From Bacteroidales bacterium (lineage in GTDB: Bacteria > Bacteroidota > Bacteroidia > Bacteroidales > UBA932), in NCBI GenBank assembly GCA_017551425.1, contig JAFZLQ010000116.1, forward strand, positions 1 to 36,896: a stretch of DNA of 36,896 nt, given 5' to 3'. The notes beneath the pieces were generated by a model. The model saw only the letters and a program-made list of their open reading frames with translations. It did no database searches and was not told the DNA's origin. The translations under genes were made by a program, and so were the position numbers. Position 1 is the first letter of the stretch. The number at the start of each line of letters is the position of its first letter. Below are positions 5,017 through 21,860 of the stretch, piece after piece.

Positions 5017-6717
5017 ATGAAAAAGCTTACTTATATAATATCCGCCGTCCTGCTGCTTGCAGGCTGCAACTTCCTGGATTTCGACGAAACTTCCAGCCTC
5101 TACGAGCGCGATGCCATGTACAAGACGTACAGCGACATCCAGAAGATGCTGACCAACATCTACGGCTACATGCCCAACAAGGACATTGTCGCCGTGAGCG
5201 ACGCGATGCGCGACTGCGGCTGCGACGACGCCGAATTCGGCGATCCCAGCGCAACCGTACAGCGTTACAACAACGGCAACTGGTCGGCCCTCTCTACCGT
5301 AGATACCCAGTGGTCCCTGTACAACGCGATCCGCTGCACCTGGGAATTCCTGGAGTCCATCCCGACGGTTGACCTCTCCATTTACAAATACGACGTCAAG
5401 TACCAGCAGTGGCTCGAGCACATCAAGTACTATCCGTACGAGGCACGCCTGCTCAAGGCATACTACCTGTTCGAGCTCGCCCGCCGCTACCGCGACATCC
5501 CCGTGCCCGACAGGATGCTCTCCATCGAGGAGGCCAACTCCATCGAGAAGACCCCCTTCAACGATGTCATCAAGTACATCGTGGAGGAGTGCGACACCTG
5601 CATCAACAAGCTGCCCGCATCCTACCTGGGCATGCTTGACGACGAGTACGGACGCGTGACCAAGGGCTTCGCCATGGCCGTCAAGACCAAGGCCCTGCTC
5701 TACGCGGCAAGCCCCCTGTTCAACGAGAGCGGAGACGCCCAGAAGTGGCTCGAGGCCGCCAAGGCCGCACAGGACCTCATCGACTCCGGCCTCTACAGGC
5801 TCGACCCGGGTCTCTTCTATCCCGGCTCCGGCAAGGAGGACCAGTGGTTCGCATCGCCCGAAGTCATAATGCACATCAGGCGCTCGGACAGCCAGAGCTT
5901 CGAGAGGTACAACTTCCCCGTACGCTTCACTGAAGGCAAGCGCACCTCGATGTCCGGCACCTATCCCACCCAGAACCTGGTGGACGCCTTCCAGACGGCC
6001 GCAGGCTATGACATCACCCTCACCGCGGACGGATGGCAAACCGACGATCCCGACTTCGACATCGAGCATCCCTACAGCGGCCGCGATCCCCGCTTCGCCC
6101 GTTCGATCCTCGCCAACGGCATGGAATTCAAGGGCAGCACCATCGAGACCTACGTGGGCGGCGCCGACTATTCCGCAACCCGCGCCGACCTCGGTTCCCC
6201 TACCGGCTATTACCTCCGCAAGTACGTCCAGGAACTCACGAGCTTCACTCCCGAGGCTGAGTACTCCTGCCAGCACACCTGGGTCGTTTACCGCTACGCA
6301 GAAGCTCTCCTGAGCTATGCCGAGGCTGCGAACGAGTACTTCAAGGATCCCGACAAGACGGACGGCATCCTGCACATGAGCGCACGCGAGGCCCTCAACA
6401 TGATACGCGCCAACGCCGGCATGCCCGACGTGACAGCAAGCGGCTACGAGGCCTTCAAGGCTGCCGTACAGCGCGAGTGGAGGGTTGAGTTCGCCTTCGA
6501 GGACCACCGTTTCTGGGATGTTCGCCGCTGGAAGATCGGTTCCTCCACACAGGGCCAGATCGACGGCGTGAGCATCATCAAGTCCGGCGAGAAGTTCGAA
6601 TACAGCCGCGCCCTCGTAGAGCGCCGCACCTGGGCGGACAGGATGAATCTCTATCCCATCCCCCAGAAGGAACTCTTCTGCAACACTAACCTCAACCCGC
6701 AGAACAGCGGTTGGTAG
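5017..6717 (+). CDS. SusD/RagB-family surface glycan-binding lipoprotein (second pair)
   Basis: A 566-residue lipoprotein. The signal peptide ends LLLAGC (Cys17) and is followed by the acidic DFDE, a composition associated with surface display in Bacteroidota. The C-terminal part contains YAEALLSYAEAANEYF and then REWRVEFAFEDHRFWDVRRW, the SusD hallmark, and ends with NPQNSGW. A C-terminal NP-GW is common in the family; the first SusD here also ends NPGW. It is the partner of the short SusC 13 bases upstream. It differs widely from the first SusD in sequence, so the two pairs are unlikely to be a recent duplication and may recognise different parts or lengths of the same glycan. Confidence 0.95.
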   Translation: MKKLTYIISAVLLLAGCNFLDFDETSSLYERDAMYKTYSDIQKMLTNIYGYMPNKDIVAVSDAMRDCGCDDAEFGDPSATVQRYNNGNWSALSTVDTQWSLYNAIRCTWEFLESIPTVDLSIYKYDVKYQQWLEHIKYYPYEARLLKAYYLFELARRYRDIPVPDRMLSIEEANSIEKTPFNDVIKYIVEECDTCINKLPASYLGMLDDEYGRVTKGFAMAVKTKALLYAASPLFNESGDAQKWLEAAKAAQDLIDSGLYRLDPGLFYPGSGKEDQWFASPEVIMHIRRSDSQSFERYNFPVRFTEGKRTSMSGTYPTQNLVDAFQTAAGYDITLTADGWQTDDPDFDIEHPYSGRDPRFARSILANGMEFKGSTIETYVGGADYSATRADLGSPTGYYLRKYVQELTSFTPEAEYSCQHTWVVYRYAEALLSYAEAANEYFKDPDKTDGILHMSAREALNMIRANAGMPDVTASGYEAFKAAVQREWRVEFAFEDHRFWDVRRWKIGSSTQGQIDGVSIIKSGEKFEYSRALVERRTWADRMNLYPIPQKELFCNTNLNPQNSGW

Positions 6718-9787: not shown

Positions 9788-11605
9788 ATGAAATCATTGT
9801 ATAAATTATCGATTGTTTTCGCAGGTGCCCTTCTCGCCTCCTGCATGGGCGACCTTGAGCCGCTTGAGCCGGTGATCCCCGAGCCCACGGCGGAAACCAA
9901 GACACTTTCTTTCGTCCTGCCTTCCGACGGTTTCAAGACCAAGTGGCAAGCCGGCGACCAGATAGTGATCCACGGCGAGTATGCGGCTGACGAGGTTACG
10001 GTAACGCTTGCCGCCGGCGACATCTCTTCCGACGGAAAGAAGGCTTCCTGCGAAGTCAAGGGGCTCTTCCCCTACATCCGCGAAGACTGCGCCAGCACGC
10101 TTTACGCCTCCTGGCCCGCAAACCTCAGCAGCAACCTGCGCCACTGCTTCTTCTACAGCGGATTCAAACCCGATACCGCTACTCCCCTCCTCGCCGCATG
10201 CAACTCCGGCGACACCTTCCAGTTCAGCGACGTTTCCAGCGCCATTGAATTCATAGTCAAGGGAGATTACGACAGCTTCGCCCTTTCCGGACGCAAGGAT
10301 GCCGTCGTAGGATATGAGTACTATCAGGTCAAGCTCACGGACAAGGAGCAGAACTACAGCCAGTACAAGGAAGGTCCCATGGTTACGGTGAGCGGCCCCG
10401 TCAACGCCGACGGCAAGACGGTGCAGCGCATCTACCTCTCCGGTGACGTGAACCTCCCCGCCGGATACATCCTCAAGTTCTTCAAGGACGGCAAGGCCCT
10501 CATGGCGCTCACGGACAAGGAGCCCCTTTCCGTAGAACGCGGCAAGGTCATCAACCTCGGCGACATCACGGGCAGGCTCAAGGAATTCGAGCTTGAGATC
10601 GATGTGTCCAAGGGCGTTGACATCACCGCCGAGGCCGGCACCGCCAACTGCTACATCGTAACGGAGCCCGGCATCTACAAGTTCCCCGCAGTCAAGGGCA
10701 ACACCACGGACGGCATCGGGGCCGTAGATTACGCCGAGATTCTCTGGGAAACATGGAACAACACAGAGGAAGTCACCCGCAAGAGCGTCGTCCAGGCCTG
10801 CACCTACGAGGGCGGCTACGTGTACTTCCAGATTCCGGACGCCCTCCATCCCGGCAACGCGCTCATCGCCGCCAAGGACGAGGACGACAACATCCTCTGG
10901 AGCTGGCACATCTGGGTTCCCAGGACTCCCGTCACCGAGCAGGAAGGCCCCAACTTCGGAGCCAAGCCCATCCTGAGCCGCAACCTCGGCGCCCTCGTGG
11001 ACGCCACCATCGACAGTCCCACTCCCGTGGAATCCTTCGGCCTGCTGTACCAGTGGGGCCGCAAGGACCCGTTCCCGGGACTCGGCGTGCTGTCCGGCGA
11101 TACGCCCATCACCGTTGCTGGTACTGCCATGACAGTGGTTGACGAGCAGAGCACCGTCGCCGGCGCGGTCCAGCATCCTACCGTACTCTACCATGTGGCC
11201 AAGGGCGACTGGCAGAGCGAGGGTCTGGACGTGGCCAGCACCCTCTGGGGCGAAGGCAAGAAGACCGTGTACGACCCGTGCCCGGCAGGATACACCATGC
11301 CTACCCGTAACAAGAGCTACGCCTTCTGGGGCAGCAGCATGTACGGAGCATCGTACTTCGTGCTCAACGAGGCCAACTGCAGCTTTGCCGTGGATGACCA
11401 GATATTCCCGCTCGCCGGCCACACCACCCACGAAGAAGGCGCATACACAGGCGCCGGACTCGAGACCATCGTATGGTCCGGACGCTGGGACAGCGGCACC
11501 CAGAACGGCTACGGCATGTTCGGCACCGCCGGAGAGAGCCCCAAGTTCAAGAACCAGGGCAACATCCGCTCCATGGCAGGTTCTGTACGTTGCGTCGTCC
11601 TTTAG
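9788..11605 (+). CDS. Mfa-like/FISUMP lipoprotein, copy 1
   Basis: A 605-residue lipoprotein; the signal peptide ends LLASC (Cys19), followed by MGDLEPLE. Residues about 35-265 resemble the fimbrillin/Mfa-like fold (W-x-AGDQIVIHG early, DISSDGKKA, then a YASWPA segment). A middle part contains TANCYIVTEPGIYKFPAVKG and ILWSWHIWVP. The final 210 residues resemble the FISUMP (Fibrobacter major paralogous) domain, with RNLGALVDA, LLYQWGRKDPFPG, YDPCPAGYTMP and the ending SVRCVVL. It belongs to a set of four homologous regions in this window (13060-14952, 16216-18141 and the front half of 18156-21860). It is not preceded by a small-peptide gene, unlike the next two. Role is inferred as a surface-exposed binding or adhesion protein of the glycan locus. 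Confidence 0.8.
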   Translation: MKSLYKLSIVFAGALLASCMGDLEPLEPVIPEPTAETKTLSFVLPSDGFKTKWQAGDQIVIHGEYAADEVTVTLAAGDISSDGKKASCEVKGLFPYIREDCASTLYASWPANLSSNLRHCFFYSGFKPDTATPLLAACNSGDTFQFSDVSSAIEFIVKGDYDSFALSGRKDAVVGYEYYQVKLTDKEQNYSQYKEGPMVTVSGPVNADGKTVQRIYLSGDVNLPAGYILKFFKDGKALMALTDKEPLSVERGKVINLGDITGRLKEFELEIDVSKGVDITAEAGTANCYIVTEPGIYKFPAVKGNTTDGIGAVDYAEILWETWNNTEEVTRKSVVQACTYEGGYVYFQIPDALHPGNALIAAKDEDDNILWSWHIWVPRTPVTEQEGPNFGAKPILSRNLGALVDATIDSPTPVESFGLLYQWGRKDPFPGLGVLSGDTPITVAGTAMTVVDEQSTVAGAVQHPTVLYHVAKGDWQSEGLDVASTLWGEGKKTVYDPCPAGYTMPTRNKSYAFWGSSMYGASYFVLNEANCSFAVDDQIFPLAGHTTHEEGAYTGAGLETIVWSGRWDSGTQNGYGMFGTAGESPKFKNQGNIRSMAGSVRCVVL

Positions 11606-11608
11606 GAT

Positions 11609-12895
11609 ATGAAGTGGCTCAGATACATACTGACAATATTCTTCGCCCTCGCGCTGGCGGGATGTGATCCGGAAGATCCGTCTCCCGTCACCCCGCCTCC
11701 GCCCGGGCCGGAGACTCCGGTAACCCCCGGTGACGATCCGGGGACCGATCCCGGCAACAATCCGGGGACCGATCCCGGCACCGACCCCGGCACCGAAGTG
11801 TCGCCGGAAGACGCCGAGCGCCTCGCCCGCATAGGGCAGACGCCCGTGGTGGCGGTGTACTTCACCGAGTACACCAAGGAGAGCGAGTTCCCCACCCTGG
11901 AGGACGTCAAGTGCTTCACCCACATCAACATAGGGCATGCGCGCTTCAAGAATCCCAAAACCGGAGACGGAGGCCTGGAGATCAAATCCCCCGGGCCAGA
12001 CTACATGAAGCGCCTGGCCGCGTACAAGAAGGACTACCCCGAACTCAAGCTGCTGCTCTTCATCGGCGGCTGGGGCAAGAACGCAGACGGTTTCTCGGAA
12101 ATGGCAAAGAACGACGAGAAGCGCGCCCTGTTCTGCAGCGAGTGCGTACGCATCTGCGACGAGTACAACCTCGACGGCGTAGATCTGGACTGGGAATATC
12201 CCACCTATGCGGCCAAGACCTACCTTGACGACGGCACCATCTATTACAACGGCGCCGACAAGGCGGACAAACAGAACTTCTCCACGCTGGTGAAGGACCT
12301 GCGCGCCGCCCTTGGCAAGGACAGGCTCATCAGCTTTGCAGCATCGGCGGACGACTACCATTCCGCAGACTACATCAACTACAAGGAAGTGCTGCAATGG
12401 GTCGATTTCATCAACGTGATGACCTACTCGATGGGAGACCCGCCCTCGAGGCACAATTCGCCCCTGTTCACATCGGCCAGGTTCAACAATGCCCGCGGCG
12501 GAGCCGACTGCATAAACGGCTACCACAACGAACAGGGCGTACCTTACGACAGGATGAACTACGGCATCGGCTTCTACGGCCACGGCACGAGCCCCTATCC
12601 TTCATCGGTCTCGTACGCCATGGCACGCGAGGCCCTGGAAAAGGGCACAGCCAACGGCAAGAGCGTAAAGGGCTACAACATCCGCTGGTGGGACGAGGAA
12701 AGCAAGAGCTGCTACCTCGGAGACACCATGGGAACGATGTACGCCAGTTACGAGGATATCGAGTCCATCGGCTACCGCATCGCCTTCCTCAAGGAGAAGG
12801 GCCTGCTGGGCGCCTTCGCCTGGGAATACAGGGAAGACGACGCGGAGGGCACCCTGCGCCACGCACTACATGAAGGAATGTTAAACAACCAATAA
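11609..12895 (+). CDS. GH18 family glycoside hydrolase, chitinase-like lipoprotein
   Basis: A 428-residue lipoprotein: signal peptide ending LALAGC (Cys19) followed by DPEDP, then a Pro/Gly/Thr/Asp linker (about residues 24-63), then a TIM-barrel GH18 domain. The GH18 signature is intact: the SxGG-like segment reads LLFIGGWG, and DGVDLDWE places Asp189, Asp192, Asp194 and the catalytic acid Glu196. VMTYSMGDP and a C-terminal GAFAWEYRED strand complete the barrel. In GH18 enzymes, Glu protonates the glycosidic oxygen and the substrate N-acetyl group acts as nucleophile, so the substrate must carry GlcNAc at the cleavage site. The DWEYP form fits chitinases better than endo-N-acetylglucosaminidases, but this is not proof. 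The gene begins 3 bases after the preceding stop. Confidence 0.93.
   Translation: MKWLRYILTIFFALALAGCDPEDPSPVTPPPPGPETPVTPGDDPGTDPGNNPGTDPGTDPGTEVSPEDAERLARIGQTPVVAVYFTEYTKESEFPTLEDVKCFTHINIGHARFKNPKTGDGGLEIKSPGPDYMKRLAAYKKDYPELKLLLFIGGWGKNADGFSEMAKNDEKRALFCSECVRICDEYNLDGVDLDWEYPTYAAKTYLDDGTIYYNGADKADKQNFSTLVKDLRAALGKDRLISFAASADDYHSADYINYKEVLQWVDFINVMTYSMGDPPSRHNSPLFTSARFNNARGGADCINGYHNEQGVPYDRMNYGIGFYGHGTSPYPSSVSYAMAREALEKGTANGKSVKGYNIRWWDEESKSCYLGDTMGTMYASYEDIESIGYRIAFLKEKGLLGAFAWEYREDDAEGTLRHALHEGMLNNQ
11732..11797 (+). repeat. 12-base tandem repeat coding for the PGTD linker of the GH18 lipoprotein
   Basis: The DNA repeats a unit close to GACCCCGGCACC about five times, giving a protein run of D-P-G-T or N-P-G-T units between the lipid anchor and the catalytic domain. 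Such linkers keep a surface enzyme away from the membrane. Near-identical adjacent units could change in number by slippage. Confidence 0.8.
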
Positions 12896-12907
12896 TCATT
12901 TATGCTT

Positions 12908-13039
12908 ATGAAGAAAGAAATCTATCATGCACCCGAAGCTGAGCTCGCTAAGATGTGGGCACAGTCTCTTATCTGTGACAGCATGACCGGAGGAGTAGAA
13001 GACTACGATCTGGTCGGAGGTTATACCTGGCAGGACTAA
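12908..13039 (+). CDS. Small peptide of 43 residues, module copy 1
   Basis: A 43-codon gene in the gap between the GH18 gene and the next lipoprotein gene; an ATG at 12902 in the same frame would add two residues. It starts MKKEIYHAPE and ends GGYTWQD. It has no signal peptide and no membrane segment, one cysteine (Cys23) and an acidic C-terminal half (EDYD). A second peptide gene at 16072-16197 shares KK near the start, Y and AP just after, a Met, Ser, Cys, Ser ladder in the middle (16, 20, 23, 25 here), DYD at 32-34, Gly38 and TW at 40-41. Both peptides sit directly before a lipoprotein gene with a strong ribosome binding site. Conservation across two copies argues that it is translated. 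I do not recognise a family; function is unknown. Confidence 0.72.
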   Translation: MKKEIYHAPEAELAKMWAQSLICDSMTGGVEDYDLVGGYTWQD

Positions 13040-13044
13040 TAATC

Positions 13045-13052
13045 AAGGAGGA
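13045..13052 (+). promoter_or_regulatory. Strong ribosome binding site (AAGGAGGA)
   Basis: AAGGAGGA lies seven bases before the ATG at 13060 and five bases after the stop of the small peptide gene. Most genes in this window have no Shine-Dalgarno sequence, as usual for Bacteroidota, so a near-perfect one is unusual. The same site with the same seven-base spacing precedes 16216. Confidence 0.8.
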
Positions 13053-13059
13053 CCGAATT

Positions 13060-14952
13060 ATGAAGAAATCATTGATTATCGCGGCCATCTTCGGCGCCGC
13101 CCTGGCAGTGTCTTGCCAGAATAAGGAGCTTGTAGAGCAGCCTGTGGAAAAACAGCCTGTCATCAAGTCTTTCACCCTCCAGCTGCCCGACACCAAGGCT
13201 TCCGTAAGCCTCGGCGGCAAAGTCTCCTGGGAAGCTGGTGACGAGATTCTCGTACACACCGGCCATATCCGTAAAGGAGAATACACCATCGTAAAACTTA
13301 ACGCATCCGACATCTCCAGCGATGGTAAAACTGCAAAGATCGCTTTCGAGGAGTTGAAGACCTACGACTGGGTAGCAAACGAATGGACGACCGAGCCCGG
13401 TAAATACAGCGATTATTATGCTGCTTATCCGGCTATGCCCACAGCTTATCCCAATACCTGGTATTGCAGGAGTTACTTCACAGACACCAACAATTTCCTG
13501 ATGGCCGCATGCGACAATGACGGAGTATTTAGTTTCTACTCCCTCTGCAGCATCATCACCTTCTCTGCTTCCGGCGACTTCGACAGCTTCGTCTTCTCCG
13601 GCAACGGCGATGAAACCATCGGCTATGATATCTATGGCGTTGAAATTCTCAACGGTGGTCAGGATTTCAGATACAAAGAGTCCAGCGGCCCCCTTACCAA
13701 GATTGAAGCAAAATTCAACAAGGGTGCGACCAACTACATCTACATTCCCGGCGGCGTCAACCTTTCAGGAGGATTTACCATCAAGTTCCTCAAGAACGGC
13801 AATGTGGTCAAGGTTGCCAAATCTACTGCCGGCGCTGACCTGGCACGCACCAGCATGCTCAACCTCGGCGACATTTCTTCGCACGTCAAAGACTACACCG
13901 CTCCTGTTACCAGCGACCACAAGTCTTCCATCCCGACTTCCGGCGCAACCGACCTTAGCGCAAAGGGTTCCGCCAACTGCTACATTGTCCCTTCTGCAGG
14001 TACATATAAGTTCCCTGCAAATAAGGGCAACTCAAGCGAGCTGGCCGGCCAGGTGTTTGGCGTAGAAATCATTTGGGAGTCTTGGAACAATGCGGAAGAA
14101 GTCACTGAGAACAGTGTAATCGCCAAGGTAGATTTCGAGAACAACTGGATCTACTTCCAGACTCCTTCTCCCCTCAAGCCCGGTAACGCAGTCATAGCCG
14201 CAAAGAATTCCAACGACAAGATCATATGGAGCTGGCACATCTGGGTTCCCCAGACGGCCATCACCACCGCCAGCTTCAATGGCGCCTTTGGAGCAGACGC
14301 TATGAAACGCGACCTTGGAGCACTCATCGATCCCGTAGGCTCCAGTTCAACTCCCGAAACAGTAGCATCTTGCGGCCTGCTGTATCAGTGGGGTCGTAAA
14401 GATCCGTTCCCGTCCGTAGGCGTTATGGCAACTTCAACCAGCGCAGCCACAACCAGCAAGCCTCTGGCAAGCATCTCCAACGTTCAGATAGCAATTGCCG
14501 AATCAATAGCCAATCCTACTGTCTTTGCATACAACGGAGAAACAGCCAACGAGGAGAATGACTGGAAAGGCATGAACTGGACTACCGACGACAACACGAA
14601 TGCATGGGATAACAGTGGAGCGAAAGGACTTTACGATCCTTGCCCTCCCGGATACAAGGTGCCTGCATATGACAGCTCGCTGCCCGCATGGACTGCCGAT
14701 GGCTGGACCTACAGTGATACCAACTTCTGGTATAAACTTGGAGATCTTGTCTTCCCCTTCTCCGGTTACCGCGACGACTGTAGCGGCAGCTGGTCTCACG
14801 CAGCCGACCGCGCAGCAGTCTGGAGCGCCACAAGCAGCGATGCCAACAAAGCGACTTGCCTTGATGTACGTATCAAGAACGCAGCCTTGTCGCTGGCAGT
14901 TACAGGCAAGTACAAGGCCCGCGGCAACTCCGTACGTTGCATCGTAGAGTAA
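13060..14952 (+). CDS. Mfa-like/FISUMP lipoprotein, copy 2
   Basis: A 630-residue lipoprotein: signal peptide ends ALAVSC (Cys19), followed by QNKELVE. The N-terminal Mfa-like region includes VSWEAGDEILVHTGH, DISSDGKTAKI and YSDYYAAYPA. The middle has SANCYIVPSAGTYKFPANKG and IIWSWHIWVP. The C-terminal FISUMP-like region has LLYQWGRKDPFPS, YDPCPPGYKVP and the ending SVRCIVE. It is closest to the copy at 16216, with which it shares stretches of nearly identical DNA such as the part coding YSDYYAAYP. Base composition looks less GC-rich than copy 1 and the SusCD genes. It starts with a strong ribosome binding site, directly after a small peptide gene, and is followed by a terminator. Surface binding or adhesion is inferred. 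Confidence 0.8.
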   Translation: MKKSLIIAAIFGAALAVSCQNKELVEQPVEKQPVIKSFTLQLPDTKASVSLGGKVSWEAGDEILVHTGHIRKGEYTIVKLNASDISSDGKTAKIAFEELKTYDWVANEWTTEPGKYSDYYAAYPAMPTAYPNTWYCRSYFTDTNNFLMAACDNDGVFSFYSLCSIITFSASGDFDSFVFSGNGDETIGYDIYGVEILNGGQDFRYKESSGPLTKIEAKFNKGATNYIYIPGGVNLSGGFTIKFLKNGNVVKVAKSTAGADLARTSMLNLGDISSHVKDYTAPVTSDHKSSIPTSGATDLSAKGSANCYIVPSAGTYKFPANKGNSSELAGQVFGVEIIWESWNNAEEVTENSVIAKVDFENNWIYFQTPSPLKPGNAVIAAKNSNDKIIWSWHIWVPQTAITTASFNGAFGADAMKRDLGALIDPVGSSSTPETVASCGLLYQWGRKDPFPSVGVMATSTSAATTSKPLASISNVQIAIAESIANPTVFAYNGETANEENDWKGMNWTTDDNTNAWDNSGAKGLYDPCPPGYKVPAYDSSLPAWTADGWTYSDTNFWYKLGDLVFPFSGYRDDCSGSWSHAADRAAVWSATSSDANKATCLDVRIKNAALSLAVTGKYKARGNSVRCIVE

Positions 14953-14980
14953 TCACCTGGAATTCAAACACTTATTTATC

Positions 14981-15016
14981 AAAAGGCGACCCTCACCGGG
15001 CCGCCTTTTGGTTTTT
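14981..15016 (+). terminator. Rho-independent terminator closing the first locus operon
   Basis: AAAAGGCG (14981-14988) pairs perfectly with CGCCTTTT (15002-15009), with an inner CCC/GGG helix and a five-base loop. GGTTTTT follows. It lies 28 bases after the stop of the second Mfa/FISUMP gene and should end transcription of the whole upstream operon. Confidence 0.85.
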
Positions 15017-15337
15017 GTATTACTTCCATGACAACGAGAACTTGTCTGGGAGTTTAATCTTTTTGTCTGGCTGGGGCAATGCGGATTTCTGCGGATGGTT
15101 TTTAACTATCTGCTTAGACCGCTGCCCATCAATGGGTGTTTTTGTGTAATTGAAACCGATCATTTTGCGCGAAGTTAAATAGTTTAAATCATTTTTGCAA
15201 GGTTGTGTATTAATCATTCTTCGAAGCAAAGAGCATACGCAGAATTACAATTATTCATTCTTTCCAAAAATCTTTTTTAAAACCGCACTCGTTATTTAAA
15301 ATATCAGCAAAACCTTTGCTCCATTTTTTAAAAAACC
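15017..15337. other. AT-rich stretch without a recognisable gene
   Basis: About 320 bases that are clearly poorer in GC than the genes on both sides. Short open frames exist on both strands (for example 15020-15229 on the minus strand) but none has a start signal or a recognisable product. It may be the edge of a transferred segment together with the toxin-antitoxin remnant that follows. I see no tRNA, insertion sequence ends or integrase. Confidence 0.5.
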
Positions 15338-15368
15338 TTGGAGAATCCAAAAAAGCGTTTCATCTTTG
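15338..15368 (+). promoter_or_regulatory. Bacteroidota-type promoter for the antitoxin gene
   Basis: TTG at 15338-15340 and CATCTTTG at 15361-15368 are separated by 20 bases, close to the -33 TTTG / -7 TAnnTTTG arrangement of the Bacteroides primary sigma factor, with one mismatch in the -7 box. The antitoxin-like gene starts 41 bases downstream. Confidence 0.5.
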
Positions 15369-15409
15369 CAGTCGTAAGGAAAGGGCATAACATTAAAAGG
15401 AAAACAGAG

Positions 15410-15565
15410 ATGGCAAAACCAATCAAAGACACGCCGGTCCTCTACGATGAGGATGCTTACCGCTTCGAAATGGCGGCTCACAATGTTGTCCCACTGCCCG
15501 AAGAGAAAGTGGAAGAGATGTTACGCGATTATGAGGAAATCAAAAAGCATTGTACGTTCCTATGA
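15410..15565 (+). CDS. Small antitoxin-like protein upstream of a GNAT toxin remnant
   Basis: A 51-residue protein that starts MAKPIKDTPVLYDEDAYRFE and is charged and probably helical in its second half (EEKVEEMLRDYEEIKK). The frame is open further upstream to 15338, but the ATG at 15410 gives the start seen in related small proteins of Bacteroidota placed before GNAT acetyltransferase genes. Its stop overlaps the next start as ATGA, the translational coupling usual in toxin-antitoxin pairs. The antitoxin role is inferred from this arrangement. Since the partner is truncated, the gene may be a remnant without a target. Its AT-rich composition differs from the flanking genes. Confidence 0.6.
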   Translation: MAKPIKDTPVLYDEDAYRFEMAAHNVVPLPEEKVEEMLRDYEEIKKHCTFL

Positions 15566-15936
15566 TTGCATGTACATTTCGAGAGTTCATCCCGGAACAG
15601 GACACGCAAAAACCGTTCGATTGTGGCAACACGGATTTGAACGGTTTTTTGTTGGAAACCGGTTCCAAAACAGTTAATGCCTCATCATCAGCGAAGGAGT
15701 TACTTACTGTGACATATATCGTTGAGGATGATAATTCGCACGAAATTATTGCCTATTTCAGCTTATTACACGATAAGATTGAACGCCATTTTTCAGATCG
15801 CCATACATGGAACCGCCTGTCGAGGTATATACCTAATGCCAAACGGCGGGCATCATACCCGGCCTTGAAAATTGGCCGCCTGGCCGTCAACTCCAAAGCA
15901 AAGGCTCAGGGTCTTTCTCGCCAGCAAACTCTTTAG
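15562..15936 (+). pseudogene. GNAT-family acetyltransferase toxin, C-terminally truncated
   Basis: The 124-residue frame starts MIACTFREFIPEQDTQKPFD at an ATG overlapping the previous stop by four bases. It matches GNAT toxins of Bacteroidota through the CGNTDLNGFL segment, a central strand with EIIAYFSLLHDKIE and the KIGRLAVNSKAKAQGL strand that leads into the acetyl-CoA loop. Family members continue for roughly 50-60 more residues (rest of the CoA loop, DAL and F-Y-K-GF parts), but here the frame stops six residues after the loop. In the loop itself the second of the usual glycines is replaced: AQGLSRQ rather than GQGLGRQ. The missing C-terminal half and altered loop make it a probable pseudogene. 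Such enzymes acetylate aminoacyl-tRNA when intact. Confidence 0.7.
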
Positions 15937-16006
15937 GCACAGCGGGTTTTGCGGAAAATGAGGGGATAAATACGCATATTGCGTAATGTGCTTGGGGTAA
16001 AAAGGG

Positions 16007-16014
16007 TATTTTTG
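16007..16014 (+). promoter_or_regulatory. -7 promoter element (TATTTTTG) for the second peptide/lipoprotein operon
   Basis: A perfect TAnnTTTG match 57 bases before the start of the second small peptide gene. A TTG exists at 15992-15994, but its 12-base spacing is too short for a good -33 box. With the terminator at 14981 it suggests that 16072-21860 is a separate transcript. Confidence 0.5.
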
Positions 16015-16071
16015 TATCATTCCGTACTATGATTATAATTTGACACAAATAACCAAAACAATCATAACGTT

Positions 16072-16197
16072 ATGACAAACAAAAAGAACCTTTATTCAGC
16101 CCCCGACATCTATTGGGAAGAGATGTTGGTAAGTTCCGTACTCTGCGAGAGCGGAGACGTCCCTGATTACGATCCTATAACTGGTTTCACCTGGTAA
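16072..16197 (+). CDS. Small peptide of 41 residues, module copy 2
   Basis: A 41-codon gene starting MTNKKNLYSAPD and ending DPITGFTW. It is the counterpart of the peptide gene at 12908: KK, Y, AP, Met18, Ser22, Cys25, Ser27, DYD at 32-34, Gly38 and TW at 40-41 are all kept, while residues in between are mostly replaced by similar ones. A two-residue gap in the middle gives the best alignment. No signal peptide, no transmembrane segment. It has its own promoter element and is followed after 18 bases by a lipoprotein gene with a strong ribosome binding site. The pattern of kept and changed residues points to selection on the peptide. Possible roles (not distinguished by sequence): a leader for coupled translation, a modified or secreted peptide, or a partner of the lipoprotein. 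Confidence 0.72.
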   Translation: MTNKKNLYSAPDIYWEEMLVSSVLCESGDVPDYDPITGFTW

Positions 16198-16200
16198 TTG

Positions 16201-16208
16201 AAGGAGGA
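16201..16208 (+). promoter_or_regulatory. Strong ribosome binding site (AAGGAGGA)
   Basis: AAGGAGGA lies three bases after the peptide stop and seven bases before the ATG at 16216. This decides the start: the in-frame TTG at 16198 just before this site is not the initiator. Sequence and spacing equal those at 13045-13052. Confidence 0.8.
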
Positions 16209-16215
16209 CACGAAA

Positions 16216-18141
16216 ATGAAAAAAGCATTTATTCTCGCAGCCCTCGCCGCTGCCGCACTCGCAGTTTCCTGCCAAGTCAAAGAGGCCGTAATCGACACGC
16301 CTGAAAACGACCCCGCAGAGGTTGACGCCCCTGTAATGCGCACTTTTACCTGTGTATTCGCCCAGCCCACCAAGGTTCAAATTGATGGAGAAAAGGGTTC
16401 GGAGAATCTTGGCAAAACCACATGGGAAGAAAACGATCAGATATTAGTTCACACTGGCCATATCAGCTCCACACAGAGCACTGTTATCACATTAAAGGCA
16501 TCTGATATCAGCGCAGACGGTAAGAAAGCCACTATCACCGTCCCTGACCTGGAAGTATATGACTGGGTCGCTAAAGGTTGGACTACCGATCCCGACAAAT
16601 ACAGCGATTATTATGCTGCTTACCCGGCTGCGGCAACCTCCAACCCAAGCAGTTGCTACGACAAGAACTATTTCTCGGATACCAACAAGCCTTTGCTCTC
16701 TGCATATTCAGACGGTGACACTTTTGTGTTCTATAACCTTACAAGTATTATCACTTTCAGTGTTTCCGGCGACTTTGACAGCTACATCTTCTCCGGCAAC
16801 AACAAGGAGATTGTTGCATACGATACTTATGCTGTTGAGCTCTTGAAAGGAACTCAAAACTTCCTGCATAGCAAATCCTCCGGTGAAAAGACAACTATTT
16901 CCGGAACTTTGACGCCTGGGACCAATTTCATTCATATCCCTAACGGTGCCGATTTCACCGATGGCTTTTCTTTCAAGTTCCTCAAGGGAGACAATGTCGT
17001 AAAGACAGCCACGACAAGTACATCAGTAAATGTCAGCAGAAGCAAGATCCTTGCCCTTGGCGACATTACAGCCAAACTTGAGGACTACTCAGCTCCTACT
17101 CCTCACGAATCCGAGATCCCTATTGCCGGCGCCATCGACCTGAGCGCCGACGGAACCGCTAACTGCTATATGCTTTCCGCTCCCGGCACTTACAAGCTCC
17201 CCGCCGTCATGGGCAACACGAGCAAGAGTCAAGCTGAGAATTTCCTGAACGTATCTGGTGTCGAGCTACTGTGGGAAACTTACAACAATGACCAGGCGGT
17301 TACCAAGAACAGCGTTATCAGCGCCGTTGACTTTGAAGACAACTGGATTTATTTCACGACACCCGAAGCCCTCAAACCCGGTAATGCCCTCATCGCCGCC
17401 AAGAACAGTCTCGGCAGGATTATTTGGAGCTGGCATATCTGGATCCCGGCATCAACTGTAAACAAAGGTTCTTATAATCTGATGGACCGCAACCTCGGTG
17501 CTCTTTACCCTCAGGGAAATGAGGCTCTGAATGCGCTCTCTTTCGGCCTTGCTTACCAGTGGGGGCGTAAAGATCCATTCCCCGGCTCCGGCAGTACTGA
17601 TTCTTCAGATGGAGCTACAATTGCAAGTGATTATTCCATCTCAGTAACTCACGATAATTCAGCGCCTAAAGGATCAATCTCTCTTTCTATCCAGAACCCT
17701 ATGGTCATATATAACACCAACGACACAGACTGGAACGATACTCGAAATGGATCTTTATGGAACGCCGGAAGCGGCGCGAAAACTGTTTACGACCCTTGCC
17801 CTGCAGGATACAAAGTGCCGGATGCGACCGACGCCCCCGTTGTTTTCGCTTCGAACCTTATGTCGTCGGAAGGATGGGTAAAAGACGATACCAATAAGAT
17901 TTTCCAGATAGGTAATCCTGCGCTGATATTCCCTTTATCTGGCTATCTTGATGACTATGAAAACAGCTTCACTTATTCAAAAATTGGCAAACGTACTGTT
18001 ATCTGGGCATCAAAAGAATATGATCTCAAGAGAGGATGTGCAATTGACGTGCGTTTTGATACTAATGAAGGGGCTGGTTCGGCAACATATAGCAAAGCCG
18101 TCAAGTCCCGTCTTGGTTCCGTCCGTTGCGTAGTCGAATAA
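16216..18141 (+). CDS. Mfa-like/FISUMP lipoprotein, copy 3
   Basis: A 641-residue lipoprotein: signal peptide MKKAFILAALAAAALAVSC (Cys19), then QVKEAV. The Mfa-like part has TTWEENDQILVHTGH, DISADGKKATI and YSDYYAAYPA. The middle has TANCYMLSAPGTYKLPAVMG and IIWSWHIWIP. The FISUMP-like end has MDRNLGALYPQ, LAYQWGRKDPFPG, YDPCPAGYKVP and SVRCVVE. The start is set by the strong ribosome binding site seven bases upstream. It is more AT-rich than the flanking fusion gene and most similar to copy 2, which suggests that the peptide plus lipoprotein unit duplicated as a block or arrived together. Surface exposure is likely; the binding target is unknown. Confidence 0.8.
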   Translation: MKKAFILAALAAAALAVSCQVKEAVIDTPENDPAEVDAPVMRTFTCVFAQPTKVQIDGEKGSENLGKTTWEENDQILVHTGHISSTQSTVITLKASDISADGKKATITVPDLEVYDWVAKGWTTDPDKYSDYYAAYPAAATSNPSSCYDKNYFSDTNKPLLSAYSDGDTFVFYNLTSIITFSVSGDFDSYIFSGNNKEIVAYDTYAVELLKGTQNFLHSKSSGEKTTISGTLTPGTNFIHIPNGADFTDGFSFKFLKGDNVVKTATTSTSVNVSRSKILALGDITAKLEDYSAPTPHESEIPIAGAIDLSADGTANCYMLSAPGTYKLPAVMGNTSKSQAENFLNVSGVELLWETYNNDQAVTKNSVISAVDFEDNWIYFTTPEALKPGNALIAAKNSLGRIIWSWHIWIPASTVNKGSYNLMDRNLGALYPQGNEALNALSFGLAYQWGRKDPFPGSGSTDSSDGATIASDYSISVTHDNSAPKGSISLSIQNPMVIYNTNDTDWNDTRNGSLWNAGSGAKTVYDPCPAGYKVPDATDAPVVFASNLMSSEGWVKDDTNKIFQIGNPALIFPLSGYLDDYENSFTYSKIGKRTVIWASKEYDLKRGCAIDVRFDTNEGAGSATYSKAVKSRLGSVRCVVE

Positions 18142-18155
18142 TAAAGCATCACCCC

Positions 18156-21100
18156 ATGTCCATCCGCAGACAATTCACAACGCTGCTGCTCGCCGCCGGA
18201 ATGGCGGCGGGCATGGCAGTGTCGTGCGACAAAGCCCTTGAGGGCACCGAGGCCGGTCAGCAGGACAAGGTTTACGAATTCACCTGCGTCATTGCCTCCG
18301 AGGAGCCCGAGGGCAAGGTAAGCATCTCCGAGCAGGGCAAGCCCCGCTGGGAGGTGGGCGACGAGATTCTCGTACACGGCGGAGGCAAGTCCAACCGCAC
18401 CGTCGTCAAGCTTACCGCCGCAGACATCAGCTCGGACGGCAGGACGGCCAAGATAGCCTTCAGCGGCGTCACCCCGTACGACAGGAGCTCGGACGGCGTA
18501 ACCAGCACGTTCTACGCCGCATACCCCGCTTCCGCCCTGAGCTCGAGCGACCTCTACTGGTACGCCACCTTCACGCAGACCAATCTCCCCCTGATGGCTG
18601 CATACAACGATGGCAGCACCTTCAAGTTCTACAACTGCTGCGGCGCCATCTCCTTCAAGGTGAGCGGCGACTTTGACTCCTACGAGTTCGAAGGCCTAAA
18701 CGGAGAGACTGTGGCTTACGACCAGTACGAGGTGAAGCTGGTTAAGAAATCAAGCGCGTCCCTCGACTTCCACCACTGGGTGGACAATCCCCAGTCGGTC
18801 GTGTCCGGCAGCGTGAAGGCCGACGGCAGCACCGTCAATTACGTCTTCCTCCCGGAGGGCGTCAACTTCACCGGCGGCTTCAAGTTCAAGTTCAAGAAGA
18901 ACGGCAGCCTGGTGAAGGTGGCAAGCTCCACCAAGCCTGTTGACGTGGCCCGCAGCAAGCTTCTCCCCCTGGGAGACATCAGCTCGCACCTCAAGGACCC
19001 GTCCGCCTCTGACACACACCAGTCGCAGATCAACACATCAATCGCTACTGACCTAAGCGAAAACGGCACCGCAAACTGCTACATCGTGAGCAAGGCCGGC
19101 ACTTACAAGTTCCCGGCAGTGAAGGGCAACGGAACACAGAGCGCAGGAACGGTGGCAAGCGTGGAAGTGCTTTGGGAAACCACCTGCACCGCAAACGCAC
19201 CCGGGAAGGGCAGCGTCATCAAGGACGTGGATTTCCAGGATCGCTACATCTACTTCGAGACCCCGTCCACCCTGACTCCGGGCAACGCGCTGATTGCGGC
19301 AAAGAACGCATCCGGCGCCATCATCTGGAGCTGGCATATCTGGATTCCCGCCACCACCATAACCACCGGCACCTACAATCTTGCCTGGGCGGACATGATG
19401 GACCGCAACCTCGGAGCCCTGGTTGCCGCGCCTTCAGGCGGAGACGGCCGCTGCTTCGGCCTCTTCTACCAGTGGGGCCGCAAGGACCCGTTCCCCGGTA
19501 TGCAGAGCATCAGCTCAAGCTCCGTCGTGGGAGTTTCAGGCACCTCGACATCCGTCATCCAGCTCCTTACTCCGGAGAACAATACGACGACGATAGCCCA
19601 GACCATCGCCAATCCGACCGTCTTCTACACCGTAAAGAACAAAGACTGGAATTCCGTAGCCGACGATGACCTTTGGGGAGGCAACTCCGGCAAGAAGACC
19701 ATCTACGACCCCTGCCCTCCCGGATACAAGGTAGCCACCGACGAGAACGCCTCCGGCCTGTTCACCACACTCACCGATGTCACCGGCTGGTCAAGCAACG
19801 TGAGCGCAGGTTACTTCCAGGCAGGATCGCCGGCCGCCACCTTCCCGTATGCCGGCTATATAGACGACTATATCGAGGCTCCGGGATCCTATGCCAATAC
19901 AGGTATTCGCGCCATGATCTGGAGCGCCCAGGGCAGCAGCGAGAAGGCCTACGGACTCGACGTCCGTTCCGACGTCAGCACAGACACGGCCCCGATCTCG
20001 GCCATCCGCAAGGCCAATCCCAAGGCCCGCGGCGGAAGCGTGCGCTGCGTCTCCGAAAACCTGGCGCCGTTCCAGAACGAGGCCGGCATGCCTGTAATGG
20101 GTTCCTCCCACCCCAGGACCGAGTTCGCCCAGAAGGACATGTCCGAGCTTTCCGGCCTGTGCTTCAGCAAGGACGGAGACTTCATGTGGGCGGTCGGAGA
20201 CAACGGCAACCTTTATCAGATCGGCTTCGACATGACCGTCACCACCAAGTTCAGCAAGTCGTACGACATGGAGGGCATCACCATAGATCCTTCCACCGCC
20301 GACCTCTACTTCTGCGACGAGCCCAACGGCATCTACAAGATCGCCGCGCCCAATTACACCACCGTTACGTATCTCTTCTCCATAGCGGAAGCGGCCAACA
20401 TGGGTAATTCGGGCCTCGAAGGCATCACGTACTACAAGAACAACGTGATTTACGCCGGCTCGCAGTCAGGCGCGACGCTCTGGGCTTACGACCTCAACGG
20501 CACCAAGATCTGGAAAAAGCAGCTCGGCACCATCGCCCCCGGCATCCAGGAAGTCGGCGACCTGTACTATGATGCGCAGACCGACCTTCTCTGGGTCAGC
20601 GACTCCGAGGCTTTCAAGCTCTTCGTGTTCGACGGGGCCGTCACCAAGCTCAAGGCCGTTTACGACATCAGCTTCATTGGCAATCCCGAGTCCGTACTCG
20701 TAGATCACGCACGCAGCTGCGTATGGGTTGGCGACGACCGCGGAAGCAGTTCCACCAACACAGACTACATCAGCTCGCGAATTTACAAAATCTCCTTCTC
20801 CAACCTTGGAGGGGGAAGCTCACAGGCAACTGCCCAGACACTCTGCAAGACGGAGTGTCTGGGGCAGAAGCCCATGGTCGTAGCATATCTTACCGAATAC
20901 ACATCCGCGTCCACCCTGAACGCGGATTTCGTTACCCATATCAACTATGCCCACGGGCGCTTTGCCAACCCGGACACCGGCGACGGAGGCATAGTGATAT
21001 CGGAGACTTCCCTCCTTAAGAAGGTCCTCGCCCTCAAGCAGCAGAAGCCCACCCTGAAGGTGCTCCTGATGATAGGCGGATGGGGCGCCAAGGCCAACGG

Positions 21101-21860
21101 ATTCTCGCAGATGGCCTCCGACCCGGCCAAGCGCACCGCCTTCTGCCAGTCCTGCCTGAACCACATACAGACCTATGGCCTGGACGGCATCGACATAGAC
21201 TGGGAGTACCCCACCTACTCCGCCGAGGGCAACGCCGCCAGCCCCGACGACATAGCCAACTTCAACCTGGTACTCAGGGAGTTGCGTGAGACTATCGGAG
21301 ATACGAAGATAATCTCCTTCGCCTCCGCGGACAGTGCAAAATATATGGACTGGACTACCGCAATCAAGTATATCGACTACGTGAACGTGATGACGTATTC
21401 GATGGGCAATCCGCCATACCACAATTCTCCCCTGTATCAATCTTCCATCGCCAGGAGCCGATCATGCGAAGAGTCCATAGAGCTGCACCGCAAGGCAGGC
21501 ATCCCGCTGACCAGAATGAACTTCGGCGTTCCTTTCTACGGGCACGCGATCTCTCCTTACAACAGCGAAGTGAAGTTCTACGAGATGGCCTCCATAATCA
21601 ACAACCATTACTACGAGAAGGGCAAGATCGACGTTACCGGCCAGAACATCCGCGTATGGGACGACGATGCCCAGGTCCCTTATATCGCCGACACTTCCGG
21701 CAAAATGCTCATCTGTTACGACGACGAGGAATCCGTGGCCCTGAAGGGGGCGTTCGCACGCGAAAAGGGTCTTCTCGGCGCCATGGTGTGGGAATACCGT
21801 TGCGATGACGACGACCACACCCTTATGCGTACTCTCTACAACGCAGTTTACGGCAAATAG
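18156..21860 (+). CDS. Fusion lipoprotein: Mfa-like/FISUMP region, SdiA-regulated-like propeller and GH18 domain
   Basis: A 1234-residue lipoprotein starting at 18156, where the signal peptide ends GMAVSC (Cys24); the upstream in-frame ATG at 18126 lies inside the previous gene. Residues about 35-635 repeat the whole Mfa/FISUMP architecture (PRWEVGDEILVHGGG, TANCYIVSKAGTYKFPAVKG, FYQWGRKDPFPG, YDPCPPGYKV, SVRCVSE). Residues about 660-885 form a beta-propeller-like region of the SdiA-regulated type (LSGLCFSKDGDFMWAVGDNG, MEGITIDPSTADLYFCDEPN, LEGITYYKNN). Residues about 904-1234 are GH18, with LLMIGGWG and DGIDIDWE (Asp1010, Asp1013, Asp1015, catalytic Glu1017), VMTYSMGNPP and AMVWEYRCDD. The GH18 part resembles the stand-alone enzyme at 11609. 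It should be an anchored enzyme cutting GlcNAc-containing glycan. The propeller's role is unknown. Confidence 0.88.
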   Translation: MSIRRQFTTLLLAAGMAAGMAVSCDKALEGTEAGQQDKVYEFTCVIASEEPEGKVSISEQGKPRWEVGDEILVHGGGKSNRTVVKLTAADISSDGRTAKIAFSGVTPYDRSSDGVTSTFYAAYPASALSSSDLYWYATFTQTNLPLMAAYNDGSTFKFYNCCGAISFKVSGDFDSYEFEGLNGETVAYDQYEVKLVKKSSASLDFHHWVDNPQSVVSGSVKADGSTVNYVFLPEGVNFTGGFKFKFKKNGSLVKVASSTKPVDVARSKLLPLGDISSHLKDPSASDTHQSQINTSIATDLSENGTANCYIVSKAGTYKFPAVKGNGTQSAGTVASVEVLWETTCTANAPGKGSVIKDVDFQDRYIYFETPSTLTPGNALIAAKNASGAIIWSWHIWIPATTITTGTYNLAWADMMDRNLGALVAAPSGGDGRCFGLFYQWGRKDPFPGMQSISSSSVVGVSGTSTSVIQLLTPENNTTTIAQTIANPTVFYTVKNKDWNSVADDDLWGGNSGKKTIYDPCPPGYKVATDENASGLFTTLTDVTGWSSNVSAGYFQAGSPAATFPYAGYIDDYIEAPGSYANTGIRAMIWSAQGSSEKAYGLDVRSDVSTDTAPISAIRKANPKARGGSVRCVSENLAPFQNEAGMPVMGSSHPRTEFAQKDMSELSGLCFSKDGDFMWAVGDNGNLYQIGFDMTVTTKFSKSYDMEGITIDPSTADLYFCDEPNGIYKIAAPNYTTVTYLFSIAEAANMGNSGLEGITYYKNNVIYAGSQSGATLWAYDLNGTKIWKKQLGTIAPGIQEVGDLYYDAQTDLLWVSDSEAFKLFVFDGAVTKLKAVYDISFIGNPESVLVDHARSCVWVGDDRGSSSTNTDYISSRIYKISFSNLGGGSSQATAQTLCKTECLGQKPMVVAYLTEYTSASTLNADFVTHINYAHGRFANPDTGDGGIVISETSLLKKVLALKQQKPTLKVLLMIGGWGAKANGFSQMASDPAKRTAFCQSCLNHIQTYGLDGIDIDWEYPTYSAEGNAASPDDIANFNLVLRELRETIGDTKIISFASADSAKYMDWTTAIKYIDYVNVMTYSMGNPPYHNSPLYQSSIARSRSCEESIELHRKAGIPLTRMNFGVPFYGHAISPYNSEVKFYEMASIINNHYYEKGKIDVTGQNIRVWDDDAQVPYIADTSGKMLICYDDEESVALKGAFAREKGLLGAMVWEYRCDDDDHTLMRTLYNAVYGK

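Follow-up and report, generated by a model that had tools for sequence, protein, structure and literature searches.

The window, by which we mean the whole stretch of DNA analysed here, is the 36,896 nt contig JAFZLQ010000116.1 (GenBank assembly GCA_017551425.1) of a Bacteroidales bacterium assigned by GTDB to UBA932. It contains two tiny open reading frames (ORFs), each of which ends just upstream of a large lipoprotein gene (Table 1). The initial annotation, made from the DNA letters alone, had described the ORFs as a conserved peptide gene that occurs twice, each time wired to a lipoprotein gene of the same family. Indeed, the two peptides can be aligned end to end (46% identity, with M, KK, Y, AP, M, S, C, S, G, V, DYD, G and TW invariant), their genes stop 20 nt and 18 nt upstream of the lipoprotein ATGs at 13060 and 16216, respectively, and the two lipoproteins are 49% identical to one another. 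For lipoprotein 2, the likely start is the ATG at 16216, rather than the TTG at 16198 of the listed ORF. Judged by eye from the sequence, without a predictor, neither peptide has a signal peptide. Neither belongs to a family in Pfam (E<=0.1) or NCBIfam (E<=1), no phage record matched peptide 1, and an Rfam search of positions 12500-16500 gave no match. Of twelve translation starts inspected in the window, the two that belong to peptide-linked lipoproteins are the only ones preceded by a Shine-Dalgarno (SD) sequence.

Table 1. Features of the two peptide-lipoprotein pairs (window coordinates)
Feature	Position	Strand	Basis or remark
Precursor peptide gene 1, 43 aa	12908..13039	+	ORF; match to the hidden Markov model (HMM) of the family
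Alternative in-frame ATG for peptide 1	12902		would give 45 aa
Peptide 1, predicted leader	12908..12982	+	YxxP at residues 6-9, C23, S25; Y-to-S distance of 19 residues; putative cleavage site
Peptide 1, predicted core, 18 aa	12983..13036	+	acidic, ends in TWQD; putative
Shine-Dalgarno AAGGAGG	13045..13051	+	8 nt 5' of the ATG of lipoprotein 1
Partner lipoprotein 1, 630 aa	13060..14952	+	lipobox C19; fimbrillin-like/FISUMP-like; weak FISUMP match
TAnnTTTG promoter-like motif	16007..16014	+	65 nt 5' of peptide 2; motif overrepresented 5' of peptide genes of the family
Precursor peptide gene 2, 41 aa	16072..16197	+	ORF; family HMM match
Peptide 2, predicted leader	16072..16152	+	YxxP at residues 8-11, C25, S27; putative cleavage site
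Peptide 2, predicted core, 14 aa	16153..16194	+	ends in TW; putative
Shine-Dalgarno AAGGAGG	16201..16207	+	8 nt 5' of the ATG of lipoprotein 2
Partner lipoprotein 2, 641 aa	16216..18141	+	weak Fib_succ_major match

A scan of GTDB genomes with an alignment of the lipoproteins yielded 77 loci, whose titles are mostly those of Bacteroidales metagenome-assembled genomes (MAGs) from the guts of ruminants and other animals; most of the named relatives are likewise metagenome-assembled. Many relatives of the peptides were found by reading 5' of the lipoproteins in these loci. With the first peptide profile (A3; 28 rows, built before the 59-genome sample described below was seen), we counted 3 to 15 peptide copies per genome in the 14 genomes reached via the lipoprotein loci, which had been picked for the lipoprotein relatives in their loci and are not a random sample. 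When searched against a set of 5.8 billion proteins, peptide 1 alone matched only itself, while the 28-sequence alignment gave 99 matches, none of which carries a Pfam domain and for which the source names shown were "hypothetical protein" only. The ORFs are members of a family of small gut-Bacteroidales peptides that is large and has been overlooked.

The family pattern is MKKx-YxxP-xxE, followed by a V/L/E-rich stretch, (C/A)-x-S and a variable acidic tail. YxxP is present in all 94 members that reach the HMM, a count that is biased by the search itself, and the mean net charge of these members is -5.5. Motif spacing was scored in 128 of 131 peptides (three did not fit): a serine lies exactly 19 residues past the tyrosine in 112 of them, and the residue at position -2 of that serine is C in 88, A in 29 and another residue in 11. 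The scoring sought [CA]xS first, 12-24 residues past the tyrosine, which favours the residue counts, and the distance to a lesser degree. Two expectations of the initial annotation had to be relaxed: the cysteine thought to be invariant is missing from 12 of the 94 members, with alanine often in its place, and an aromatic C-terminus is merely common (W last in 32 and F in 19, or 51 of 94 together). The test for coding constraint that it suggested came out in its favour. Across 20 non-overlapping family pairs, pooled pS was 0.606 and pN 0.211, giving a dN/dS of ~0.20, although the pairs were chosen at an amino-acid identity of at least 55%, which biases pN low. Neutral evolution does not describe these ORFs, and the family is under purifying selection. 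A conserved N-terminal half joined to a variable C-terminus would fit a leader-core precursor, rather than a leader that stalls ribosomes.

The arrangement seen in the window recurs throughout the family. Among the 96 distinct peptides of the first loci, 85 have a lipobox-type start within -30 to +60 nt of the peptide stop, at a median spacing of 15 nt. A lipobox start also follows 34 of 44 further distinct peptides, which come from loci found by whole-genome searches blind to gene context. The expectation of homologues beside such lipoprotein genes was borne out. For comparison, 400 kb sampled from one genome gave 280 ORF calls of at least 150 aa, 51 of them with a lipobox. Pfam matches of 61 partner lipoproteins (the 85, minus 20 that are truncated or short and 4 others left out) were mixed, with Fib_succ_major in 6, Glug in 4, Mfa_like_1 in 2 and others in one or two each, and a fimbrillin-like pattern is shared by their N-terminal halves when inspected by eye. 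A structural model of lipoprotein 1 reached a pLDDT of 77, and its fold match was weak: the highest-probability hit among the 50 matches listed was 3up6, a putative adhesin of Bacteroides ovatus (probability 0.93, rank 16). Since its TM scores are only 0.19/0.31, the fold of the lipoprotein is uncertain. A different family of upstream ORFs, 82-84 aa long and with the N-terminus MNNNI.YYNAISRE, precedes lipoproteins at three loci of Alistipes MAGs (L053, L062 and L048); the lipoproteins of L053 and L062 carry an SD.

The SD found at both lipoprotein starts of the window is also a feature of the family. In the 85 pairs with a lipobox start (the 11 peptides lacking one were left out), an SD of at least 5 nt precedes the lipoprotein in 44 and the peptide in none. 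These matches are 5-8 nt long and, in 41 of the 44 SD-bearing pairs, lie 7-9 nt from the ATG. We also compared 109 peptide-linked lipoproteins with 241 other lipoproteins of the same loci, both defined as ORFs that satisfy a lipobox rule rather than as annotated genes, after dropping those with less than 250 nt of upstream sequence and those with duplicate N-termini; three cases with weak peptides, one of them with an SD, were kept apart. SDs of at least 6 nt were present at 36 of the 109 and at 3 of the 241 (p=2e-17), and SDs of at least 5 nt at 54 and 14, respectively. Bacteroidia ribosomes are described as hiding their anti-SD, with strong SDs known at rpsU and rpsR (PMC9976891, PMC8710568), and according to a survey Bacteroidetes employ SDs neither at new starts nor in reinitiation (below 10%; PMC6728339). 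Because Bacteroidota hardly use SDs, yet the SD marks the start of the lipoprotein only, the peptide-lipoprotein pair looks translationally coupled. The features of SD coupling, namely an SD at the second start, none at the first, and a short spacing, are all present in the 44 SD-bearing pairs, where the SD is probably a signal for coupling.

Lasso-type RiPP (ribosomally synthesized and post-translationally modified peptide) recognition elements (RREs) are reported to bind [Y/W]xxPx[L/V/I/F/A], with YxxP as the core (PMC13381572). Since YxxP is the core of an RRE-bound motif, we looked for RREs. Of 19 peptide genomes, 18 (all but G010) had a PqqD-family (PF05402) match above the cut-off, as compared with 3 of 14 control genomes. 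The PqqD genes adjoin genes for a ~290-aa protein, a 140-150 aa S24/S26-like protein and a ~545-aa ABC transporter, usually in the order kinase - peptidase - RRE - ABC. In the main RRE stretches of the 18 genomes, all four genes are present in 13 and three in the other 5, and an ABC exporter gene is found in 15 of these 18 first-batch stretches. Among 14 further stretches, in which the ABC matches are often weaker, ten have all four genes, one has three and three have two. In G007 and G012, kinase and RRE lie on different contigs.

The sole PDB match of the RRE profile at E<=0.1 was the lasso RRE TfuB1 (6jx3, E=1.9e-5). In the ~290-aa protein, a P-loop, NDDNP and PWSGK are conserved; its structural model (pLDDT 91) shows an HprK/PEPCK fold (HprK being HPr kinase), in that the 50 fold matches listed were all PEPCK or HprK. 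In the S24/S26-like protein, the serine of SM.P and the histidine of LHR are invariant in 12 of 12 aligned sequences, and we read it, by comparison with the enzymes in PMC13381572, as a probable archaeal-type signal peptidase. The ABC protein carries PF00664 plus PF00005 in both proteins tested and qualifies as MsbA-like. The published account of the linear polyphosphorylated peptides (LPPs) of Bacillota describes sets that comprise SpI, an RRE, an HprK-like kinase and an MsbA-like transporter (PMC13381572); a discrete PqqD-like RRE and an HprK-like kinase, both features of the LPP pathway, are present in the set described here. By eye, we also noted a second type of PqqD-like RRE near polysaccharide-type genes in G001 and G013 (L215, ~6247-6507; L216, ~6053-6319), beside an unidentified protein of 320-336 aa.

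The peptides and the enzyme set co-occur. We scored 59 genomes of the family to which G001 belongs with a wide peptide profile (A5) and a kinase profile (A4), the matches of which in this sample were either at E<1e-50 or absent. Peptide and kinase occurred together in 21 genomes, the peptide alone in 3, the kinase alone in 2 and neither in 33 (Fisher p=8.4e-11). With profile A3, the corresponding numbers for the same genomes were 16, 2, 7 and 34 (p=2.4e-7). Across 99 order-wide genomes, for which the limit for the kinase was 1e-20, the numbers were 5, 1, 3 and 90 (p=4.6e-6, or 5e-5 once G022, common to both samples, is removed), and all three genomes positive with A3 carry the kinase. So do all 14 of the genomes reached via lipoprotein loci. 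Bacteroides caecigallinarum ET12 (G014, L068) carries the set as well as 9 peptide hits. Peptides and set are also linked: of 25 genomes that have both, 8 have a peptide gene no more than ~3 kb from the set (G033, G118, G121, G123, G126, G134, G148 and G160, read off the coordinates by eye), whereas 0.64 are expected within 6 kb either side, a limit set after the cases had been seen. In G126 (L210), two peptide-lipoprotein pairs lie directly 5' of the kinase; in G160 (L222), a pair lies right behind the ABC-like gene, as does one in the equivalent position in G123 (L221); and in G134 (L224), a pair follows the peptidase gene by ~140 nt.

We propose that the tiny ORFs encode dispersed, RiPP-like precursors that are served by one shared machine and are each co-translated with a surface lipoprotein, and we put the probability of this explanation at about 0.72. 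In the mechanism that we infer, the YxxP leader would be recognised by the stand-alone PqqD-type RRE, and the HprK/PEPCK-fold kinase would probably phosphorylate the peptide on a serine; in LPPs, the phosphorylated residue is reported to be Ser3 of the core (PMC13381572). The signal-peptidase-like enzyme, with its conserved Ser and His, would cleave off the leader in the vicinity of the near-invariant (C/A)-x-S, a motif that could be either a signal-peptidase -3/-1 site or the phosphate acceptor, and the MsbA-like ABC transporter would export the acidic, often W/F-ended tail. A single enzyme set would thus suffice for many precursors scattered around the chromosome. Translation of each precursor would be coupled in vivo to that of a mostly fimbrillin-like lipoprotein, via the SD in about half of the cases, and on the cell surface the lipoprotein would probably serve to hold or anchor the peptide, to present it or to sense it.

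Several observations weigh against this proposal. The enzyme set was demonstrated in the genomes of relatives, rather than in that of the window, and no product has been observed for any peptide of the family. Some of the sampled genomes contributed sequences to profiles A5 and A4, the statistics for co-occurrence and linkage ignore the species tree, the linkage was seen first and tested afterwards, and the 14 genomes with counted peptide copies were chosen non-randomly. The genomes that break the pattern are G137, G144 and G162 (peptide without kinase) and G141 and G169 (kinase without detected peptide) in the 59-genome sample, and G052 (peptide only) and G043, G065 and G092 (kinase only) in the order-wide sample. 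PqqD alone is less specific, being present in 27 of the 59 family genomes and 66 of the 99 order-wide genomes. Pfam matches of the peptidase candidate to S24/S26 are below the cut-off, and its best PDB match is LexA at E=0.011. In 41 of the 85 pairs there is no SD of at least 5 nt, and 11 of the 96 and 10 of the 44 peptides have no lipobox start downstream. At L056, L071 and L076, A-x-S peptides precede 592-596 aa proteins that look exported, with type I signals as judged by eye, and that are not lipoproteins; the pairing may therefore extend to other exported proteins. Finally, the LPP consensus given in PMC13381572 is YxxPxVLxHQxIxFETxxS, whereas the consensus here is YxxPxxE...(C/A)xS, and only YxxP is clearly common to both.

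Part of the pattern would also be expected if the peptide ORF were a translational leader, which brings ribosomes to the SD by termination-reinitiation or regulates the lipoprotein, and whose product is unimportant. The close spacing and the restriction of the SD to the lipoprotein start are what such a leader predicts, and 29 of 87 peptides have TAnnTTTG, which we take to be a promoter-like motif, in the 250 nt 5' of them, as opposed to 6.6 in shuffles. The initial annotation had placed a leader that gates lipoprotein translation beside a modified or exported peptide and a partner of the lipoprotein. However, in the 44 SD-bearing pairs the SD was no less accessible than with a shuffled upstream part (p=0.91), and we rejected an RNA structure that hides the SD. 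Of the two-part wiring proposed there, then, the pairing is real and is likely to involve translational coupling, while gating by RNA structure is the part that did not hold up. Selection on the amino-acid sequence, the nearly constant Y-to-S distance, and the correlation and linkage of the peptides with the enzyme set are likewise difficult to reconcile with an ORF whose product does not matter, and we regard a simple leader as unlikely. It is the modified or exported peptide that has strong genomic support, from the co-occurrence of RRE, kinase, peptidase-like protein and ABC transporter and from linkage.

Were the peptide instead an unmodified partner of its lipoprotein, such as a chaperone or sorting aid, with the enzyme set acting elsewhere, the frequent pairing would be accounted for. 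This we consider quite improbable, given that the set co-occurs with the peptides and can adjoin them, and that a few peptides precede the unrelated, exported-looking proteins of L056, L071 and L076. The SD excess at peptide-linked lipoproteins could also reflect a regulon read by bS21-poor ribosomes, in which the SD is regulatory, as at rpsU, and the peptide is secondary; Bacteroidia ribosomes that lack bS21 are reported to use strong SDs (PMC9976891). In a 400-kb sample of G012, a strong SD was found near a possible start in 14 of 303 genes, as compared with 5 at internal ATGs, and several of these SDs sit right behind the stop of an upstream gene, i.e., at ordinary downstream cistrons. A reading based on specialised ribosomes is weakened by this, because strong SDs mark ordinary downstream cistrons too. 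It also sits poorly with SD matches of 5-8 nt and with the many pairs that lack an SD of at least 5 nt, and we give such a regulon very little weight, less even than the unmodified partner. On contigs C1 and C8 of G012 (L181-L200), one strong SD lies, for example, at a SusD-like gene behind the end of a SusC-like gene (names by eye).

The remainder of the window holds two more lipoproteins of the same family (at 9788 and 18156), which lie directly behind other genes and have no family peptide upstream. The FISUMP-like lipoprotein at 18156-21860 also carries, as a fusion, a chitinase-type (GH18) domain. The two peptide-lipoprotein pairs are separated by a 50-aa antitoxin-like ORF (15413-15562) and a short, truncated-looking acetyltransferase-like ORF (15565-15933); both likenesses were judged by eye, and a Pfam search at E<=0.01 gave no match for either.

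If the proposal of shared maturation is correct, ORFs now recorded at best as hypothetical proteins would become a large repertoire of processed peptides in gut and rumen Bacteroidales, for which the maturation genes would be known, together with a surface partner for most peptides. It would also offer a direct test of the role of stand-alone sets of PqqD, HprK-like, signal-peptidase-like and ABC proteins in Bacteroidales, and the pairs would be a naturally occurring case that departs from the general neglect of SDs in Bacteroidota. We can tentatively go one step further, to a genome-wide peptide display in which one set matures up to ~16 precursors, each SD-coupled to its own lipoprotein, which would carry or receive the matured, possibly phosphorylated peptide. 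The pairs would then also form a class of SD-using genes not listed before, in a phylum said not to use SDs; we hold this wider picture at somewhat less than even odds.

No earlier report of such a system was found among the papers listed from the open-access literature, judged by titles and the openings of abstracts, with subscription papers mostly outside its scope. Several known systems do share parts of it. Termination-reinitiation pairs have the same short stop-to-start distance and an SD at the second gene, but the same survey reports that Bacteroidetes rely on SDs for neither kind of start (PMC6728339). Lasso peptides, made with an RRE (B1), a B2 peptidase and a cyclase (C), have in common with the peptides described here a YxxP leader and a stand-alone RRE, TfuB1 being the sole PDB relative found. 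A lasso-type B2 peptidase was rejected: PF13471 exceeded the cut-off in none of the 19 peptide genomes, with hits below it in two, and no search for the cyclase was made. The DAG-RiPPs of Bacteroidota, hybrids of RiPP and lipoprotein from MNIO clusters, also tie RiPP biology to lipoproteins (PMC12636315). There, however, it is the precursor that has the lipoprotein signal and receives the lipid, whereas here separate genes encode peptide and lipoprotein, and YxxP, PqqD and a kinase are absent from the available text of that paper. Bacteroidales double-glycine (GG) RiPPs exported by PCATs resemble our peptides in having a leader and an ABC exporter (PMC10352776); in contrast, we saw no GG leader by eye, the signal-peptidase-like enzyme is separate, and the available text on the GG RiPPs does not mention such a set.

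The closest resemblance is to the LPPs. The word stem "Bacteroid" is absent from the main text of the LPP paper, and no NTP transferase was recognised by eye in the operons, although no profile search was made for one. Like ours, the LPP precursors, of 35-200 aa, combine a conserved N-terminus that contains YxxP with a C-terminus that varies (PMC13381572), and the discrete RRE, the HprK-like kinase, the MsbA-like transporter and, probably, the SpI-type signal peptidase are common to both. The LPPs belong to Bacillota and our peptides to Bacteroidales; here, at least 10 precursors can be dispersed in one genome, with one near the set in 8 of the 25 genomes, and most precede a lipoprotein gene. 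Because the two differ in phylum, in the rest of the precursor consensus, in how precursors are clustered and in the lipoprotein pairing, we call the system LPP-like, rather than an LPP.

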